Shown here: in pieces, positions 9,908-62,445 of the stretch
Layout of the letters: each line of letters opens with the position of its first letter
Numbering within the stretch: position 1 is the stretch's first letter
Source of the DNA: Pseudobutyrivibrio sp. MD2005
GTDB lineage: Bacteria > Bacillota > Clostridia > Lachnospirales > Lachnospiraceae
Assembly: GCF_000621865.1 (NCBI RefSeq)
Contig: NZ_KK211358.1
Span: 62,001 to 126,000 of the forward strand
Length of the DNA: 64,000 bases
Reading direction: 5' to 3'
Notes under the pieces: model-generated
What the model was told of the DNA's origin: nothing
Database searches by the model: none
Seen by the model: only the letters and a program-made list of their open reading frames with translations
Program-made: the position numbers and the translations under genes

Positions 9908-11557
9908 ATGCCAGAAATCAAATTAGAAAATATTACAAAACGCTGGGGAAAGTTCTTTGGCGTAGATAATGTAAGTTTGGACATACCTGATAATTCGTTT
10001 ATTACATTACTTGGACCATCAGGCTGTGGAAAGACCACAATCCTTAGAATGATAGCCGGTCTTGAAACACCAACAGAGGGAAGAATAACAATTGGTAATA
10101 AAGTTGTCTTTGACTCAGAAGCAGGAATAAATGTTCCAGCTAACAAGAGAAAAGTAGGATTCCTTTTCCAGAATTATGCCCTTTGGCCAAACATGACAGT
10201 GTATGACAATATTGCATTTGGCCTAAAGAATATCCACGAAGAGCTTCCTGTTATTGATGTGGAAGCAAAGCAGATTAGCGGAATAATTAAGGCTCTTTCT
10301 AATGGAAATAAAATCAAAGAGACCATTGAAGAATGCCTCGACAAAAATGGTAAGCTTGATGAAAACAAAGCCTATGTAAAATTGATTGATAACTATAATC
10401 TATCGATTTATTCTGCAAAAGAACTTTATAGTTTAGGAATTCATACTGCAAATGACCCTTCAGCCCTTGCAAGCACAAAGCTCACAGAATACCAGGAGAA
10501 GCTTGCAGCTATAAACAGCAAGTACTCAGCTGAAGGCAAGTCTTTAAATGAAAAATTTGAAGTGACCAAAAACGGTGCAGTTATACTTGAAAAGAGAAAA
10601 CTCACAAAAGAAGAAATAGACTCAAGAGTGAGAGCCTGCTCTAGAATAGTAAAGATAGGAATGTTTATGGACAGATATCCAGCTGAGCTTTCTGGTGGAC
10701 AACAGCAGAGAGTTGCCATTGCAAGAACTCTTGCACCAGAGCCACAGGTGCTTTTCATGGATGAGCCACTATCAAACCTTGACGCAAAGCTTCGTCTTGA
10801 AATGAGATACGAGCTTCAAAGACTTCACGTAGAAACAGGCAGCACATTTGTATATGTAACCCATGACCAAATGGAAGCCATGACACTAGCTACAAAGATT
10901 TGCCTTGTAAACAATGGAGTATTGCAGCAGTATGCACCACCGCTCACTGTTTATAACCGCCCATCAAATCTATTTGTTGCCGATTTCGTAGGAAATCCTT
11001 CAATGAATTTTGTAGATGCCAAAGGATTACAGGAAGCTGATGGCTCGGTTTCTCTAAAAATATTAGGAGATATAAAGGCAAGGTTCCTACCAGAGTATGC
11101 ACTTGATATGAATGCCTGGCGACATGTACGTGACCAGAGCATCGCAGACAAAGCTGAAGCAGAGCGCCTACGCTTATCAAAGAAAGGTGCCGTAGAAAAA
11201 TCTAACAAGGACGAAGTATTCAGATATCATGTACAAAAGGTCGAAGAAGTAGACGAGAGCATCCTCGAAGACCCTGTTATCACTGACGAAGATTTTGTAC
11301 TTGGCATCAGACCAGAATTCATCGATATCGAAGATAATGGCACCATAAAATCAGAAATCTATGGCGCCATGCCTACTGGAATGGAGTCAACCCTAAAGCT
11401 TCGCGTAGGAGAGTACCTCCTCACAAGCGTAGTATTTGGCGGCGTACTCTACCAAATTGGCGAAAAAGCCAACCTGGCAATCAAAGGCTCAGACATCCTC
11501 CTCTTCGACAGAAAGTCTGGACGTCTCATCTGCGCTGGTAGCCTCGAAATTCAATAG
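9908..11557 (+). CDS. ABC importer ATPase with a long insertion in the helical domain
   Basis: Cytoplasmic ATPase of 549 residues, far longer than the usual 350 or so. It has Walker A GPSGCGKT (36-43), Q-loop Q88, signature LSGGQ (261-265), Walker B VLFMDE (281-286) and H-loop H319. About 125 extra residues (roughly 107-232) sit between the Q-loop and the conserved KEEIDSRVR helix, where relatives have only about ten. The C-terminal TOBE-like regulatory part (about 340-549) is also enlarged by a Lys/Glu-rich segment. I chose ATG 9908 because GGAGGA lies 6-7 nt upstream. All catalytic motifs are intact. The stop codon TAG abuts the first giant palindrome. Confidence 0.93.
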   Translation: MPEIKLENITKRWGKFFGVDNVSLDIPDNSFITLLGPSGCGKTTILRMIAGLETPTEGRITIGNKVVFDSEAGINVPANKRKVGFLFQNYALWPNMTVYDNIAFGLKNIHEELPVIDVEAKQISGIIKALSNGNKIKETIEECLDKNGKLDENKAYVKLIDNYNLSIYSAKELYSLGIHTANDPSALASTKLTEYQEKLAAINSKYSAEGKSLNEKFEVTKNGAVILEKRKLTKEEIDSRVRACSRIVKIGMFMDRYPAELSGGQQQRVAIARTLAPEPQVLFMDEPLSNLDAKLRLEMRYELQRLHVETGSTFVYVTHDQMEAMTLATKICLVNNGVLQQYAPPLTVYNRPSNLFVADFVGNPSMNFVDAKGLQEADGSVSLKILGDIKARFLPEYALDMNAWRHVRDQSIADKAEAERLRLSKKGAVEKSNKDEVFRYHVQKVEEVDESILEDPVITDEDFVLGIRPEFIDIEDNGTIKSEIYGAMPTGMESTLKLRVGEYLLTSVVFGGVLYQIGEKANLAIKGSDILLFDRKSGRLICAGSLEIQ

Positions 11558-12150
11558 CCCCCACAGCGACCGTGTGATTAAGCGGCTCACGCTGCCAGGC
11601 CAGGCTGTCCTTGAATGATTTTGCGAATATTTTTAGTTCTTCAATGGGCAAAATCTAGGCATCGCACATGTGTCTTGTTGCGGAATGAACCGTTTGAAAA
11701 AAATGTTTTTTGATTGGCGGACACTGAGGTTTTTATTGTACTTCTTAGGCTAAGGGGAACTTGGTTTCATATTACGCTTGCTAAGTAACATAACAAAGCA
11801 GGTTTTGCATATATAGGTACCGTGGCACATTCAACATCGTGTTTTAAGTGACCACTTGCGCTGCCGTCCGTGGCAGCGCATACCTACATATTGCAAAACC
11901 TGCTTTTATGTTACTAGGCTCGCTCCAAAATCAACCAAGTTCCCCTTAGTCTAAGAAGTACATTTTAGTTTAGAATGTGTGTCCGCCAATAAAAACATTT
12001 TTTCAAACTGTACAGGCCTGCAAAAGACACATGTAAATAGAGATGCCTAGATTGCCCATTAGAAGAACAAAATATTCTTGCAATATTCAAGGACAGCCTG
12101 GCCTGGCAGCGTGAGCCTGGTATATGCTGGTAGTCGCTGTGGGGGCTATT
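11553..12150 (+). repeat. Giant imperfect palindrome, copy A (about 600 bp)
   Basis: The left arm from 11553 and the right arm ending at 12150 are reverse complements along nearly their whole length, with scattered mismatches and small indels. The palindrome begins at the TAG stop codon of the ATPase gene. The apex holds AGCAGGTTTTGCA (11797-11809) paired with its complement (11892-11904), a stem TAGGTA/TACCTA, a variable hairpin, and a conserved hairpin GCGCTGCC/GGCAGCGC (11858-11879). The core (from GATTTTGCGAATATT, 11617) matches copies B and C. The outer 64 bp of each arm do not match the other copies but do match each other. TTTT after the apical stem could end transcription. No credible protein is encoded. 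It fills most of the gap before the next gene. Confidence 0.85.
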
Positions 12151-12246
12151 AGATTTCTTAAATGTTCGTTTAACTTGTAGTATGTAATTTAATTGATTAT
12201 AATTATCGTATATACCATATTAATGATGATTGGGAGGGGGTAAACT

Positions 12247-24701: not shown

Positions 24702-26004
24702 GCAAGCAATTAAAAGACTTAAGAATAAATTCATAATGACTGCAATGGTGTCATTCTTTGTGGTTATGACATTTATTGCAGGCTTTATTTATGCAATAAA
24801 CGCCCTCATGACTCGAAGTCAAATCAGGGGAAACATACAGTACATTGTCGACAATGATGGCATCCTACCTATGCAGTACGAGAGCATCGAATCCGACAAA
24901 TCAGCCGACAATGGCCAAACTATAAAAGATAAAAATGATTTTATTTCTCAGCTGGAAAAGCTATTTGGTGTTGAAAGCGGATACATCTCGGATGAATTTT
25001 ATTATTCAACCAGATATTTTGCAGTAACATTTAATGAAGAAGGCGAAGTAGAAAAGGTAATTACCAGTCATACAGCAGCTGTAGAATCCAATCAAGCCGT
25101 CACCTACGCAAATACGGTAATGAAGCGTTGGTTCAAATTTGGTAGCTACGACGACTATTATTACATGGTATCAGACCGAGAAAATGGAGGAACGATAGTA
25201 GTAGTTCTAGATTGCAGCACACAAATCTCTATCAACAGAAGACTTGTTTCACTTGCCTGCATCCTAATTGGATTAGGAATGATTATCTCAGCATTTGTCA
25301 TCCGTGCATGGGCAGAAAAACTGATTCAGCCCGAAATCAAAAATGCTGAGCTTCAGAAATCATTTATCACAAACGCCAGCCACGAGCTCAAAACACCGCT
25401 TGCGGTAATCAAAGCCAACACAGAAATGCTTGAAATGATGGGCACAGAAAATGAGTGGACCCAGTCCACCATGCGCCAAGTAGATCGTCTTACAGGCCTC
25501 ATCCAGAATCTAGTATTAGTTACACGAGCAAGCGAGAAAGACAGTAAGGAAGATCGTGTCGAAACAGATTTTACATCAATCGTAAAAGACACCGCCAAAA
25601 CTTTTGAGCCTGTAGCAATATCTGATGGCAAGACTATGGAACTCTCAATCTCCGATGGTGTAAGCATGCTGGCCCACGAAGGCGACATCCGTCAAATTGT
25701 AACTTTACTCATAGACAATGCAATCAAATATTGCGACGACAATGGAAAAGTAGTCATCGGACTAGGCACCGACAAAAAGAAAAAGAACATTTACCTTCGC
25801 GTATCCAATACCTACAAAAACGGTGGCGACGTAGACTACGGCAAGTTCTTCGACCGTTTCTACCGCGGCGACCAGTCCCACAACATCGACAAAGAAGGCT
25901 ACGGCGTTGGCCTCTCTATCGCCCAAGGCCTCATGGAACGCTACCACGGCGACATCAAAGTCAGCTGGCGCGACGACATCATCACCTTCACTTGTAAGTT
26001 CTAG
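24694..26004 (+). CDS. Sensor histidine kinase (HisKA plus HATPase)
   Basis: Membrane kinase of 436 residues. A first helix (about 12-38) and a second (about 182-205) frame an extracellular sensor domain. HisKA has H230 in ITNASHELKTPLAVIKAN. The ATPase domain shows LLIDNAIKYC and the G box YGVGLSIAQGLMERY. It is partner of the OmpR-type regulator. The last two kilobases of this operon are richer in C-ending codons than the upstream genes. The gene ends TAG inside the first arm of giant palindrome C. Confidence 0.95.
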   Translation: MSEQAIKRLKNKFIMTAMVSFFVVMTFIAGFIYAINALMTRSQIRGNIQYIVDNDGILPMQYESIESDKSADNGQTIKDKNDFISQLEKLFGVESGYISDEFYYSTRYFAVTFNEEGEVEKVITSHTAAVESNQAVTYANTVMKRWFKFGSYDDYYYMVSDRENGGTIVVVLDCSTQISINRRLVSLACILIGLGMIISAFVIRAWAEKLIQPEIKNAELQKSFITNASHELKTPLAVIKANTEMLEMMGTENEWTQSTMRQVDRLTGLIQNLVLVTRASEKDSKEDRVETDFTSIVKDTAKTFEPVAISDGKTMELSISDGVSMLAHEGDIRQIVTLLIDNAIKYCDDNGKVVIGLGTDKKKKNIYLRVSNTYKNGGDVDYGKFFDRFYRGDQSHNIDKEGYGVGLSIAQGLMERYHGDIKVSWRDDIITFTCKF

Positions 26005-26642
26005 GCCCGCCAGATACACCTTGCCCCTTTTATATTGAGGGACCCGCACCCAGCCCATAGGGCAGCGCCACCACAGGCACTCGCGAATTTTGCGAAGATT
26101 ATAGATTTTCTTAATGCACAAAGGGAGCTTCATGTGGGTGTCCTTTTGTTGGTTTTGCAATTCTGAGCTAATGTATGATGAGGACAGACATATAGATATT
26201 AAAAAATGCATCCAATAAGATTTTGGATAATTGCATTCATATTACATTCACTAAGAAAAACATAAAAACAGGTTTTGTAGATTTAAGTACCGGCTTCAAG
26301 TTCAGTCCGTTTCACTATCAGCCTTGGGCTGCCATCCATGGCAGCCCATACTTAAATTCTTCAAAACCTGTTTTTTGTTTTTCTAAGTTCATTTCAAAAT
26401 CATGCAATTATGCTAAAACTTATTGGATGCACTTATTAAGCTTTGTTTGTGTCTGTCCTCAGCAGACTTTAGTGATAGAATTGCAAAGAATCAAAAGAAC
26501 ACCCACCAATAAAGAAGCGACACTGTGCATTTAGAAAATCATAATCTGAAGGCAATAGCGAGTGCCTGTGGTGGCGCTGTCCTATGGGCTGGGTGCGGGC
26601 CCTGTGCTAAGTGGTGGGGCAAGGTGTATCTGGCGGGCCTAG
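26001..26642 (+). repeat. Giant imperfect palindrome, copy C (about 640 bp)
   Basis: CTAGGCCCGC (26001-26010) is mirrored by GCGGGCCTAG (26633-26642), and the two arms align inward almost throughout. The arms contain the TAG stop codons of both convergent flanking genes (26002-26004 on +, 26639-26641 on -). The core from 26085 (GAATTTTGCGAAGATT) and the apex match copies A and B, but the sequence has drifted. The apical hairpin is GGGCTGCC/GGCAGCCC (26326-26347), with pair swaps relative to A. AACAGGTTTTG pairs with CAAAACCTGTT (26362-26372), followed by a T-rich tract. Orientation is as copy A. Open frames inside are incidental. Confidence 0.85.
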
Positions 26643-28377: not shown

Positions 28378-28490
28378 ACATGTGTAAATATGATATCCAT
28401 TCCGTGGCGTATTGCTTCATTTTTGTTATCTTGCATTATCATAAATCAAATCTGTAAGGAAGTTGTGTTGACGCTTGTGAGCAAAAATGG

Positions 28491-28743
28491 AGTATCACTT
28501 TTTAGGGATTTTTAAGAAGTGATACTAAGATTTGCTCCAAGCTGGCCCATTTTTTCAAAAATAAGTATCACTTTTGCTAATATTTTAAAAGTGATACTAG
28601 ATTATAGACAAAGGCATGCTGTTTTTTACATTTTTAAGTATCACTTTTAGAAATCGCTATAAAGTGATACTCATTTTTTATGAGAGGGACGGAATTTGGG
28701 CAAATTCTAGTATCACTTCGGAAAATACGATAAAAGTGATACT
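28491..28743. repeat. Four-hairpin array 1, period 72-73 bp
   Basis: Four inverted repeats with arms AGTATCACTT(TT) and (AA)AAGTGATACT lie at 28491-28526, 28564-28598, 28637-28671 and 28709-28743. Their starts are 73, 73 and 72 bp apart. Loops and the 37-38-nt stretches between hairpins differ from unit to unit. It occupies the 520-nt gap between the AIM24 terminator and the next gene; a possible promoter (TTGACA, 28794-28799) follows. The function is unknown. Confidence 0.85.
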
Positions 28744-28854
28744 ACATGTTTCTTTTTCATAAAATCTCTCCGTAGATAGAGAATTGACAATCAAAACATA
28801 TATGCCAAAATATAAATAATAATATAAGAGGAAGGTACAAGGAGAGTTATTATT

Positions 28855-40987: not shown

Positions 40988-41256
40988 AAGGTATAATCAT
41001 GGGCTGATATGGGAGATGGTTATACCTTTTGGTGAGCTATAGGACACTATGTTGAAGTCAAAAAGGTATAACCAGAGTAGGATTTTATGTCAGGTTATAC
41101 CTTTTAGCGGGCAATGAGACATTATATTGAAGTCAAAAAGGTATAACCAGAGTGGGATTTTATGTCAGGTTATACCTTTTGGCGAGCGATGAGACATTAT
41201 ATTGAAGCGAACAAGGTATAACTAAGAGCAAAAATAGTAGATGGTTATACCTTTTT
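40988..41256. repeat. Four-hairpin array 2, period exactly 75 bp
   Basis: Four hairpins with arms AAAAGGTATAACC and GGTTATACCTTTT start at AAGG positions 40988, 41063, 41138 and 41213, i.e. 75 bp apart each time. The second and third units are nearly identical, including the stretch GAGACATTATATTGAAG between hairpins. The outer units have diverged. It has the same design as array 1 at 28.5 kb but a different arm sequence. The remaining gap to 41431 is AT-rich with a HindIII-like AAGCTT dyad and no gene. Confidence 0.85.
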
Positions 41257-41431
41257 GTCTAGCAGGTAAGCTTCAATGGTTTTATTAATAATATCTTCAG
41301 TAAGCGGTGAATTTTAACCTATAAGCTTATAACCTTAATTTTTTTAAAAATATTTTCTTTTTTAAATATGAGATGTGATAAGCTTATAAGGTGAATTAAC
41401 AAATCGAAGTTTGAAAAGGTGTTATAGGGAA

Positions 41432-54684: not shown

Positions 54685-55740
54685 ATGGAACGTCAGCCGA
54701 TGGAGAATAAAACTAAATACCTGGCAATGAATTACCTTAGGGTTTTAGCTTTTGCTTTTATTATTGTGTACCACTTTATGGTAGAGCTGGAACAAAAAGG
54801 AAACTACAATTTCCTGGAAAAGGGTACAGTATATTACTCAAATTCAAATCTTCATATTGCGATTATAGGTGTCAGCCTTTTCTTTATGATTTCAGGTGCC
54901 GGATTGATGCTGTCTAGCAAAAAGCATTGGGATATTAAGGATTTCTACAAGAGAAGATTTATTAAGCTTTTGATTCCATTTTACGTGGTGGAGTTGTTTA
55001 CACTTGTAGCTTCTTATGTGCTTAAGCCAGAGTGGCTCGGATATTTTCCATTAATAGCAAAGCCAAAAGCTATTTTTAATTTACTTGGAATGGATGGTTA
55101 CTTCGAGCAGTTTTTTCCTACATTTAGTCTGCATGTAGGAGAGTGGTTCTTAGGAGCACTCATTATGCTATATGCACTTTTCCCTGTTTTTAGATACTGT
55201 ATGGAAAAGAATCGATATATCACTATTTTAGTTGCCACAATCTATTACGTTGTATTGATCTTTGGAAACGTAATTACAACATCACCTTGGACCAATGTAT
55301 TTGTAAAGGCATATGATTTTATCTTGGGAATGTTTTTGATTTTAGAGATTCCAAGGCTTATGGACAAAAAGGCATTTAAAGTGACGAGCCTGGTAGTCTC
55401 AGCGGTAGTTATTCTTACAGGAATCGTCTTAAAAACACAATTACCTACAACAATAACAGTTAATAACCTTGTATATGCCCTAATGCTATTCTTATGTTTC
55501 TTTGCCTTAGAGCCTACACAAGCAAGCAAAAATTTTTTTGATGATTTAAGCCAACAGATTTGCAAGATTTCCTACGAAGTCTTCCTAGTGCATCATATTA
55601 TTATTTACTACATCGGTGATAATCTTGAAGGAAGAGCAATGGGATTAAAGCAGATAAGCGCATTGTTTGCCACAGAAGTGTTCATAATGATTGCAATGGC
55701 GCTTCTCGTCAAAAACATAGTCGCTTTAATAAAAAAATAG
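54685..55740 (+). CDS. Acyltransferase 3 family membrane protein
   Basis: A 351-residue relative of the preceding gene product, with the same layout: NYLRVLAFAFIIVYHF, FFMISGAGLML and YKRRFIKLLIPFY. About ten helices. ATG 54685 is preferred because GGAGG lies about 11 nt upstream; an in-frame ATG at 54667 overlaps the previous gene. Tandem pairs of this family usually decorate polysaccharide, but no glycosyltransferase is near. The TAG stop is followed at once by giant palindrome B. Confidence 0.87.
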   Translation: MERQPMENKTKYLAMNYLRVLAFAFIIVYHFMVELEQKGNYNFLEKGTVYYSNSNLHIAIIGVSLFFMISGAGLMLSSKKHWDIKDFYKRRFIKLLIPFYVVELFTLVASYVLKPEWLGYFPLIAKPKAIFNLLGMDGYFEQFFPTFSLHVGEWFLGALIMLYALFPVFRYCMEKNRYITILVATIYYVVLIFGNVITTSPWTNVFVKAYDFILGMFLILEIPRLMDKKAFKVTSLVVSAVVILTGIVLKTQLPTTITVNNLVYALMLFLCFFALEPTQASKNFFDDLSQQICKISYEVFLVHHIIIYYIGDNLEGRAMGLKQISALFATEVFIMIAMALLVKNIVALIKK

Positions 55741-55741
55741 T

Positions 55742-56350
55742 AGTTATCATTCACATCCATGACAATGTGTAACCATCCTCAACCATGCTGGGGCCCGCAC
55801 TACACACCGGCGTATTGCATGAATATTGCGTTTTTCTAATGTTCCATTTATGCATCTTTATTTACATGTGTCTTTTGCAGGCCTGTACAGTTTGGGAAAA
55901 TGTTTTATTTGGCGGACACACATACAAAACTAAAATGTACTTCTTAGACTAAGAGGGAACTTGGTTGATTTTGGAGTGAGCTTAGTAACATAAAAGCAGG
56001 TTTTGCAATATATAGGTATGCGCTGCCACGGATGGCAGCGCAAGTGCGTAAGCGACAGGACGTCGCATGGAGCACGGTACCTAGATATGCAAAACCTGCT
56101 TTGTTATGTTACTTAGCAAACGTAATATGAAACCAAGTCTCCTTAGCCTAAGAAGTACACTAAAAACTGCAGTGTCCGCCAAAATATAAAAACATTTTCT
56201 CAAACGGTTCATTCCGCAACAAGACACATGTGCGATGCATATATTTGGAACATAAGGAAAACAGCAATATTCGCAAAATCACGCCGGTGTGTAGTGCGGG
56301 CCCAGCATAGTTGAGCATGGTTATACAAAAAACGAGTGTGAATGATAACT
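55742..56350 (-). repeat. Giant imperfect palindrome, copy B (about 610 bp)
   Basis: AGTTATCATTCACA (55742-55755) is mirrored by TGTGAATGATAACT (56337-56350), and the arms align inward. It begins one base after the TAG stop of the acyltransferase. The core matches copy A in reverse orientation, up to AATATTCGCAAAATC at 56266-56280. The outer 70 bp are unrelated to A or C but mirrored within B (GGGCCCGCACTACACACCGG). The apex has GCGCTGCC/GGCAGCGC (56020-56041) and a second hairpin GCGAC/GTCGC (56052-56066). AGCAGGTTTTGCA pairs with 56088-56100. It sits between convergent genes. Confidence 0.85.
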
Positions 56351-56365
56351 GAATATGGACATTGA

Positions 56366-61398: not shown

Positions 61399-62445
61399 AT
61401 GGGAGTATTAGGGGGAAATAAAAAGTTTAAAAGCAACAGTGCGCTTGCCATTGCGGCAGGTTGCGCTGTTGCTTTTATGTTTATTGCTACAATTATCAGC
61501 ATTGTTTTGTACAAGCAACGTATGGAAGAAGCCGTAGGTCTTATGGCTGAGGCAAAGTACAATCAATACGATTCTTATGTTGTCATGATATCTTCAGATG
61601 ACAATTCTGATTTTTGGCAGCAGGTGTATAGTTCTGCAAAAGAAGCTTTTGCTGACAAAAATATCTATTTAGATATGATTTCCAATAGCGTGGATGAAAG
61701 CTTTGAGAAATCAGATCTTATCGAAATGGCTATCGAGGCAGAATGCGATGCTATTTTGGTGGAAGGCGATGATAGTCCTGAAACTGAAGCAGCCCTTTCG
61801 GATGCGAGAAAAAAAGGCATTGATGTATTTGCAATAGGCAATGATGTGGTTAGTGAATATAGAGTTAGTTACATAGGTACTAATAGCTATTCCATAGCTA
61901 GTTTATATGCCAATTCACTTGTAAATAGTATGAGTAGACAAAAAAAGGTAATGGTGCTGGGCGGTACATCTGGAAGCGAGGCTTCAGCCTATGGATTTGT
62001 CAATAATTTGCAGACATCTTTAGGCGATGTAGAGCTTCCAAATGGCCCATTAACTTTCGATGTAAGAACAGTGGATAGCACTAATCCATATGCTACAGAA
62101 GAATATGTTCAAAAGCTGTTTAAGGAAAATGATTTGGCGCCAGTTGTCATTTGCCTTGATGAAGATTCAACTGCATCCTTCTATCAAGCTATGATTGATT
62201 ACAATAAAGTTGGTTCAATTTTGCTTTTTGGAAGTAACAAATCATCTACCATTTTAACAGGGATTAAGCAAGGAGTTATTGCGAGCACTGTCTTTGTTGA
62301 TGCTGCTAGCATTGGTGAAGCTGCAGCAAATGCCTATATTGAATATCGCGATACTGGATATGTATCAGATTACATCAGCGTTGATGCAAAGATAATAGAT
62401 GGCGAGAATATAGGTGATGAGCTTCAGGAGGTGGAGAATGAGTAG
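61399..62445 (+). CDS. Membrane-anchored sugar-binding protein (type 1 periplasmic fold)
   Basis: A 348-residue protein with one N-terminal membrane helix (about 17-42) and no lipobox. An RbsB-like domain follows (about 58-335; YVVMISSDDNSDFWQQV, AECDAILVEG, VMVLGGTSGSEASAYG). The anchored form, and its place before a YesM-type kinase and regulator without a permease, indicate a ligand sensor rather than a transport component. It overlaps the kinase gene by 8 nt. The likely ligand is a sugar. Confidence 0.9.
   Translation: MGVLGGNKKFKSNSALAIAAGCAVAFMFIATIISIVLYKQRMEEAVGLMAEAKYNQYDSYVVMISSDDNSDFWQQVYSSAKEAFADKNIYLDMISNSVDESFEKSDLIEMAIEAECDAILVEGDDSPETEAALSDARKKGIDVFAIGNDVVSEYRVSYIGTNSYSIASLYANSLVNSMSRQKKVMVLGGTSGSEASAYGFVNNLQTSLGDVELPNGPLTFDVRTVDSTNPYATEEYVQKLFKENDLAPVVICLDEDSTASFYQAMIDYNKVGSILLFGSNKSSTILTGIKQGVIASTVFVDAASIGEAAANAYIEYRDTGYVSDYISVDAKIIDGENIGDELQEVENE

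Follow-up and report, generated by a model that had tools for sequence, protein, structure and literature searches.

Giant palindromic transposable elements with TwoAYGGAY tips in Pseudobutyrivibrio, their arms probably kept alike by copying at the DNA level

A stretch of 64,000 nucleotides from contig NZ_KK211358.1 of Pseudobutyrivibrio sp. MD2005 (positions 62,001 to 126,000, here called the window) contains three palindromes of 612-642 bp, each of which bears the RNA motif TwoAYGGAY at its tip. We conclude that these palindromes are non-autonomous transposons resembling miniature inverted-repeat transposable elements (MITEs), giant in size, palindromic throughout and equipped with IS4-type ends, and that their two arms evolve in concert. 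Their nature as mobile elements is well supported, the maintenance of their arms by copying at the DNA level fairly well. For the explanation as a whole, i.e. a giant palindromic MITE whose arms are kept alike by DNA copying, we estimate a probability of about three in four.

The preliminary description of this DNA had reported palindromes of about 600 bp at three loci, and these proved to be real, with limits nearly as claimed. Palindrome extension scores are 87, 93 and 78 for copies A, B and C (loci L015, L029 and L001), compared with at most 4.1 when the flanks were shuffled (20 copies), and the arms are 75-78% complementary in gapped alignments. A second inverted-repeat method retrieved near-perfect outer arms in copy A (11584-11616/12085-12117, 33 nt, 100%) and in copy B (26040-26084/26558-26602, 45 nt, 96%). 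The predicted RNA folding energies amount to -356, -375 and -325 kcal/mol for A, B and C, and none of the three contains an open reading frame (ORF) of 150 aa or more. At copy A, the 12 last coding bases of the adjoining gene are mirrored by the far end of the palindrome with two mismatches. The parts of the three copies are as follows.

11546-12157, minus strand: copy A, entire palindrome of 612 bp; the gene ending at 11557 has its final codons and stop in the outermost 12 nt
11546-11616, no strand assigned: copy A, left outer arm, unmatched in the other copies compared
11769-11930, minus strand: copy A, TwoAYGGAY tip (RF01731), 80 bits
12085-12157, no strand assigned: copy A, right outer arm, complement of 11546-11616
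26001-26642, minus strand: copy B, entire palindrome of 642 bp, flanked by two convergent genes whose TAG stops both lie inside its ends
26040-26084, no strand assigned: copy B, outer arm, 96% complementary to 26558-26602
26240-26398, minus strand: copy B, TwoAYGGAY tip (RF01731), 73.2 bits
26558-26602, no strand assigned: copy B, outer arm, partner of 26040-26084
55737-56356, plus strand: copy C, entire palindrome of 620 bp; the gene ending at 55740 has its stop codon where the palindrome starts
55743-55757, plus strand: copy C, left terminal inverted repeat GTTATCATTCACATC
55969-56128, plus strand: copy C, TwoAYGGAY tip (RF01731), 88.5 bits
56335-56349, minus strand: copy C, right terminal inverted repeat AGTGTGAATGATAAC (plus-strand letters)

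The core common to all three loci, which had also been recognized at the outset, is the TwoAYGGAY tip. The Rfam match spans about 160 of the 612-642 nt, which leaves some three quarters of every palindrome beyond the described family. The earlier statement that no known family is involved thus fails for the inner 160 nt, where the match is clear, and holds for the 450 nt of arms. One copy is indeed inverted relative to the others, but it is the third and not copy B: the motif is a minus-strand feature at 11769 and 26240 and a plus-strand one at 55969.

The expectation of many copies was borne out. In the MD2005 genome (3.09 Mb, 26 contigs) we found 49 tips, all above the TwoAYGGAY gathering cut-off (43 bits, covariance-model score). 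The palindrome extension score exceeds 50 in 43 of them, with lengths of 549-801 bp. Of the remainder, L005, L007, L033 and L039 are short, and L027 and L028 are truncated by N or by the end of a contig; for these six, palindrome limits were assumed in the stop-codon survey described below. Two further copies with N runs inside were met via their ends (L059, L060). Because assembly gaps or a contig end lie inside L027, L028, L059 and L060, copy numbers from draft genomes are lower bounds.

Homologous palindromes also occur in related genomes. At least one TwoAYGGAY match is present in 27 of the 29 genomes of the genus, MD2005 included. Together with the 49 own copies we compared 68 of the 203 copies in relatives (117 in total), and 52 of these 68 form a giant palindrome (median 695.5 bp; L056, at a contig end, was excluded from this survey). 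In G028, whose main contig comprises 3.4 Mb, the palindromes measure 736-784 bp in the three copies inspected; giant palindromes are therefore not merely a short-read artefact. Throughout the class, 28 of 291 genomes have matches at E 0.001 and 20 of 291 above the cut-off (20 of 181 genera). Outside the genus 23 of 25 loci carry hairpins of 200-332 bp, several of which do not exceed the shuffled control in their extension scores; five of 38 loci were excluded from the hairpin survey as irregular (L056, L082, L094, L102 and L105). From loci L079-L107, 25 of 29 entered the stop-codon survey and 24 of 29 the analysis of tip mismatches and folding. The tip pattern is also found in Roseburia porci. 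A contig labelled uncultured Erwinia (L266) shows it as well, possibly through a binning error or by chance.

Evidence for mobility comes from the ends. Younger copies share precise ends (GTTACCATTCACAGT...ACTGTGAATGGTAAC), beyond which the sequences diverge, and a terminal inverted repeat of 15 bp, GTTACYATTCACAGT. With up to three substitutions allowed, both terminal repeats are kept in 17 of 18 younger and three of 25 older own copies. Both ends could be located in 36 of the 117 copies. Perfect 8-bp flanking repeats surround five of these 36 (four own, one in G025), and three more match at seven of eight positions, two of the three being orthologues. In a control that paired left and right flanks of different copies, 0 of 1260 combinations matched at 8/8 and 0.6% at 7/8. 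For L031, a search of the genus with the joined flanks led to five relatives (L326-L330), in all of which the empty site is continuous and free of TwoAYGGAY; in two of them, L327 (G026) and L330 (G010), the target AATAAATT occurs once and is aligned with the flank. Empty sites were not found for L038 at fmt, where by eye the upstream region differs in relatives, or for L019, where the matches run up to the junction or past it and then end; at L040, the alignments of three relatives cross the junction with few left bases in common, and no empty site is claimed. Ends with at most one mismatch occur in 23 of the 29 genus genomes, and exact ends in 24 of 250 genomes of the family Lachnospiraceae, with up to 70 end matches per genome.

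The same ends delimit transposase-coding elements. In another genus, L268 is a complete insertion sequence of 1748 bp that encodes a 461-aa protein with a DDE_Tnp_1 domain (E 1.3e-23), which passes the NCBIfam cut-off for IS4 transposases; by eye, its flanks match at seven of eight positions. Within the genus, L299 in G028 is a second complete insertion sequence, 1710 bp with the same ends around a protein 39% identical to that of L268. At E 0.001, the L268 transposase has matches in 11 of the 29 genomes of the genus, a number of them weak or partial. L269, from a further genus, is a 744-bp palindrome throughout with the same ends, a perfect 8-bp duplication and a predicted folding energy of -472 kcal/mol. 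Since L269 has no TwoAYGGAY match, the giant palindromic form is not tied to this motif.

Several other elements with these ends came to light. L066 (1144-1335) and L076 (645-837) contain elements of 192-193 bp with the same GTTACTATTCACAGT ends and a different interior, and end pairs with this spacing recur in several Pseudobutyrivibrio genomes. L070 (30-448) holds a 419-bp palindrome with the same ends, arms that by eye are like those of copy B, and a tip without an Rfam match. In L069 (4070-4104), a 35-bp hairpin consists of two end repeats only, followed by TTTTTT and located 11 bases behind the stop codon of an ORF; here, transposon ends alone make up a terminator-like structure.

The concerted evolution of the arms becomes clear when two zones are distinguished. 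We could split 33 of the 43 own copies at conserved anchors, both of which had to be present. Inner arms of different copies have an identity of 0.83, the two inner arms of one copy a complementarity of 0.75. For outer arms the identity is 0.49-0.51, at the level of shuffled sequences (0.50), and the complementarity 0.81. An outer arm is closer to its own partner than to the same arm of any other copy in 28 of 33 cases, compared with one of 33 for inner arms. In 19 of 33 copies, the outer block is unmatched in the other 116 copies; the 14 matched ones fall mostly within a young cluster of 17 similar copies, nine of them with a mean best identity of 0.92-0.94, alongside which older copies exist. 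The G+C content is 56% in outer arms, 37.5% in inner arms and 40% in the flanks.

Orthologous copies (14 pairs compared) point to changes after insertion. The flanks of L187 (G010) and L196 (G006) are about 95-96% identical, and the two copies have a locus-specific outer block of about 57 bp in common; everything inside this block is reversed, so that the tip is 0.99 identical only when flipped. Likewise, the tips of L053/L054 are 0.99 identical flipped and 0.58 unflipped, and those of L183/L197 0.88 and 0.57. Weaker flips, which may be separate insertions, were noted for L008/L209, L023/L194 and L171/L183. Six pairs have the same orientation (L183/L202, L184/L190, L185/L191, L187/L204, L201/L219 and L213/L223, the last with tip matches of only 0.56 and 0.47). 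L184 and L190, with about 97% identity in their flanks, differ on both arms in a block of about 30 bp, which is complementary in each species; each version (up to three mismatches) occurs only twice in the 29 genomes, as the two arms of its own palindrome. Over 1346 columns, the six same-orientation pairs show 63 compensated doubles, 122 singles and 31 uncompensated doubles, and from the single rate we estimate that about one compensated double would be expected.

Two alternative origins of the unique outer arms have to be considered. If the elements inserted into the loops of existing terminator hairpins, the outer arms would be old terminator stems. The duplicated target of L019, TAGGGATT, is indeed the 5' arm of a terminator-like hairpin, an inverted repeat flanks L035 outside its ends (by eye), and outer stems resembling terminators are seen in some hairpins from other genera, e.g. 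L090. However, the GC-rich unique block of young copies lies inside the terminal repeats and thus belongs to the element, the L184/L190 block changed on both arms after insertion, T-runs are missing, and by eye the empty site of L031 has no such stem. We regard this origin as highly unlikely. Scarcely probable, too, is ectopic recombination between dispersed copies as the process that swaps outer arms and tips. It would account for young copies that are mosaic in the outer block, such as L040, whose arms by eye resemble different copies, and for the 14 outer blocks with matches elsewhere, but not for the 19 without; no donor of the rewritten blocks exists in the 29 genomes, and the L187/L196 flip leaves the locus-specific outer arms in place.

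A third alternative is selection for a functional RNA at mRNA 3' ends, namely a hairpin of about 300 bp that serves as terminator, mRNA protection, Rho shield or CsrA sponge. Its location would suit such a role: of the 51 stop codons that adjoin palindromes in the own genome, 34 are inside the palindrome or within 15 nt of its end (31 of 51 within 15 nt of the end, on either side), compared with one of 38 start codons. The strongly negative folding energies of the window copies, the CsrA-sponge role proposed for TwoAYGGAY in excerpts of PMC4333381, and G·T excesses in the tip and, weakly, in the gene-oriented arms and outer block, detailed below, also speak for it. Yet among copies with one adjoining gene, the motif is sense in 17 and antisense in 14, it is flipped between orthologues, and the outer sequence is unconstrained.

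Pairing that is selected in an RNA should keep G·U pairs and avoid A·C on the RNA strand. We counted the corresponding G·T and A·C mismatches between arms by symmetric scoring on the motif strand and found no wobble preference: 269 versus 287 in 43 copies, with 80 versus 61 among isolated mismatches, 33 versus 27 between orthologues, and 58 versus 65 among single changes of the young cluster (ends 8 versus 7, tip 3 versus 7). In 24 loci of other genera, the tip has 18 versus 19. With so little sign of RNA-strand selection, an RNA hairpin as the selected form of the arms is unlikely. The long RNA hairpin envisaged in the preliminary description is therefore probably not what maintains the arms; the tip may still be a functional RNA.

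Special forms of the RNA role were considered separately. T-runs behind the palindromes gave no signal (TTTT within 20 nt in five of 25, the control AAAA also in five of 25); therefore a terminator role is not supported, and the whole palindrome was rejected as a terminator. The C-rich outer arms were rejected as Rho sites, as the 60 nt outside the ends have the same C-over-G skew. A 5'-leader role of TwoAYGGAY in this genus is argued against by the position of the tips next to gene 3' ends, by their occurrence in both orientations and by the flips between orthologues. The tip may instead be cargo or a structural loop, with a putative RNA role.

Template switching or conversion between the arms accounts for the arm pattern better than selection on RNA does. 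According to excerpts of the respective studies, template switching homogenizes the arms of inverted repeats and inverts the spacer (PMC8604942) and yields multi-base compensatory changes (PMC8794818), and a human Y palindrome undergoes conversion with GC bias and rare inversions (PMC3723533). For the elements described here, we propose the following course. A non-autonomous element of about 610 bp when young would insert with an 8-bp target duplication, moved in trans by the IS4-type transposase of same-ended elements. After insertion, the two arms do not drift apart; one would be copied onto the other, either by intrastrand template switching at replication or by mismatch correction in an extruded hairpin. 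We favour arm copying because complementary arms with replaced outer sequence, paired changes, in-place flips and an inverted groEL flank all fit it. Typical SbcD, part of a palindrome-cutting nuclease, is absent in most of the genus, which may allow the palindromes to persist. Most copies sit just behind stop codons, where they are least harmful and may serve as gene boundaries.

The groEL case concerns a sequence beyond the element at L138 of the own genome, which repeats the groEL 3' flank in inverted orientation and diverged form, by eye including the terminator (score 18.8, best of 30 shuffles 11.5). The groEL comparison read 26 of 27 loci, L164 being cut off. Among the 25 other loci, L144, L146, L148 and L152 clearly exceed the shuffles, L143 and L155 barely. 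In other species, the inverted repeats that abut the stop and surround the groEL terminator are different ones (L144, L146, L148 and L152), and some of these loci have an unrelated second hairpin element as well. A more far-reaching proposal is that a class of Lachnospiraceae transposons has turned into giant palindromes that rewrite themselves by DNA foldback copying in cells mostly devoid of a typical SbcD, with paired rewriting of the outer arms, inversion of the core and capture of the 3' end of a neighbouring gene. We put this forward tentatively, with doubt slightly outweighing belief.

SbcD scores above the cut-off in three of 29 genus genomes, G003 has SbcD in two pieces, and the own genome has a weak partial match only. 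The absence of SbcD may permit long palindromes; SbcD loss as the cause of copy number was rejected, as there is no correlation. In four genomes, a weak SbcD-like gene lies directly beside orthologous palindromes (L197, L171, L183 and L202, in the order of the list):

G006:C60:8421-8714, weak SbcD-like gene beside palindrome
G009:C11:18009-18302, weak SbcD-like gene beside palindrome
G010:C81:5880-6173, weak SbcD-like gene beside palindrome
G013:C239:2344-2637, weak SbcD-like gene beside palindrome

A number of observations weigh against our explanation. As to mobility, the own genome has no match to the L268 transposase, so that any present mobility there is conjectural. The flanks of L299 match at only four of eight positions, and its protein is a putative transposase by its identity to the L268 protein. 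As to persistence, G002, G007 and G028 have SbcD and still contain 10, 10 and 8 copies. Stop codons adjoin nine of 15 younger and 17 of 24 older copies (p 0.51), and growth of the palindrome towards the stop codon with age was rejected because this difference is not significant. Moreover, inverted copies of the groEL 3' flank are also found in species without TwoAYGGAY there, which suggests that stop-abutting inverted repeats are a wider habit of the genus and not specific to this element. The genomes with clear flips, G006, G010 and G013, are metagenome bins, in which orientation could be mixed or mis-assembled, and a donor of the rewritten L184/L190 block may sit in unsampled strains.

Further points on the same side come from the mismatch and base counts. 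The balance of G·T and A·C in the young cluster is the sum of opposite leanings, 34 versus 19 in the outer block and 13 versus 32 in the inner arms. When the arms are oriented by the adjoining gene, G·T prevails over A·C (211 versus 164, p 0.017, 29 copies), and it does so in the tip, with 52 versus 11 in the own genome and 71 versus 21 in relatives, totals that count common ancestral pairs repeatedly. Paired changes in the young cluster lean towards G+C in the outer block (49 changes from A·T to G·C, arising from 18 A·T pairs, and 36 in reverse, from 26 G·C pairs) and in the end repeats (12 versus 3) but towards A+T in the inner arms (4 versus 13), the tip being even (9 versus 11), which makes GC-biased conversion possible for the outer zone alone. 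On balance, we consider selection for a functional RNA hairpin unlikely, and the palindromic MITE with arms kept alike by DNA copying remains our preferred explanation.

Two other repeats in the window also form hairpins. Positions 40988-41258 comprise four 75-bp head-to-tail units with hairpin arms GGTTATACCTTTT / AAAAGGTATAACC, and positions 28483-28751 tandem units of about 73 bp with arms AGTATCACTTTT / AAAAGTGATACT. As AGTATCACTTTT recurs in the right flank of L037, it may represent another dispersed hairpin family.

With these elements, an orphan RNA family of 2010 gains a genomic home. Present in up to dozens of copies per genome, they form a natural system in which template switching, conversion between arms and the inversion of long palindromes in place can be traced in sequences and put to the test. 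They also hold a warning, as covariation, the main evidence for structured RNA, can arise at the DNA level. If the palindromes do rewrite themselves, compensatory changes would arise partly without RNA selection, and the TwoAYGGAY family would partly be a record of such palindromes.

A comparison with known systems places the elements as follows. TwoAYGGAY RNA was described by Weinberg et al. 2010 (PMC2864571) and is mentioned in the Rfam 15 account (PMC11701678). In Rfam it is a 168-nt model typed as cis-regulatory, whereas here it forms the tip of a 600-bp mobile palindrome at gene 3' ends, lies on either strand and flips. Among the top-ranked titles and abstracts on palindromic MITEs, Butyrivibrio repeats, quasipalindromes, palindrome conversion and clostridial IS4 MITEs, which covered few subscription journals, we found no such element. 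Repetitive extragenic palindromes and bacterial interspersed mosaic elements (REP/BIME) were rejected, as their unit is 20-40 bp in the excerpted part of PMC3733652 compared with about 610 bp here. Bacterial MITEs, as excerpts of PMC10969869 portray them, likewise lack a transposase ORF, have terminal inverted repeats, target duplications and an insertion sequence with the same ends, and are intergenic; the elements described here differ in their length of about 610 bp, their full-length palindromic structure, their concerted arms and an interior that inverts in place. With IS4-family insertion sequences they have in common the terminal repeat, in those accompanied by an IS4-type DDE transposase, but the palindromes encode none. 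Quasipalindrome template-switch mutation (excerpts of PMC8604942 and PMC8794818) produces the same homogenized arms, spacer inversion and multi-base compensatory changes; those studies concern yeast genes and RNA genes, whereas here 600-bp dispersed bacterial elements are affected. Finally, the human Y palindrome P6, according to the excerpted portion of PMC3723533, resembles our elements in arm-to-arm conversion, GC bias and in-place inversion, although it is far larger and of unrelated origin.

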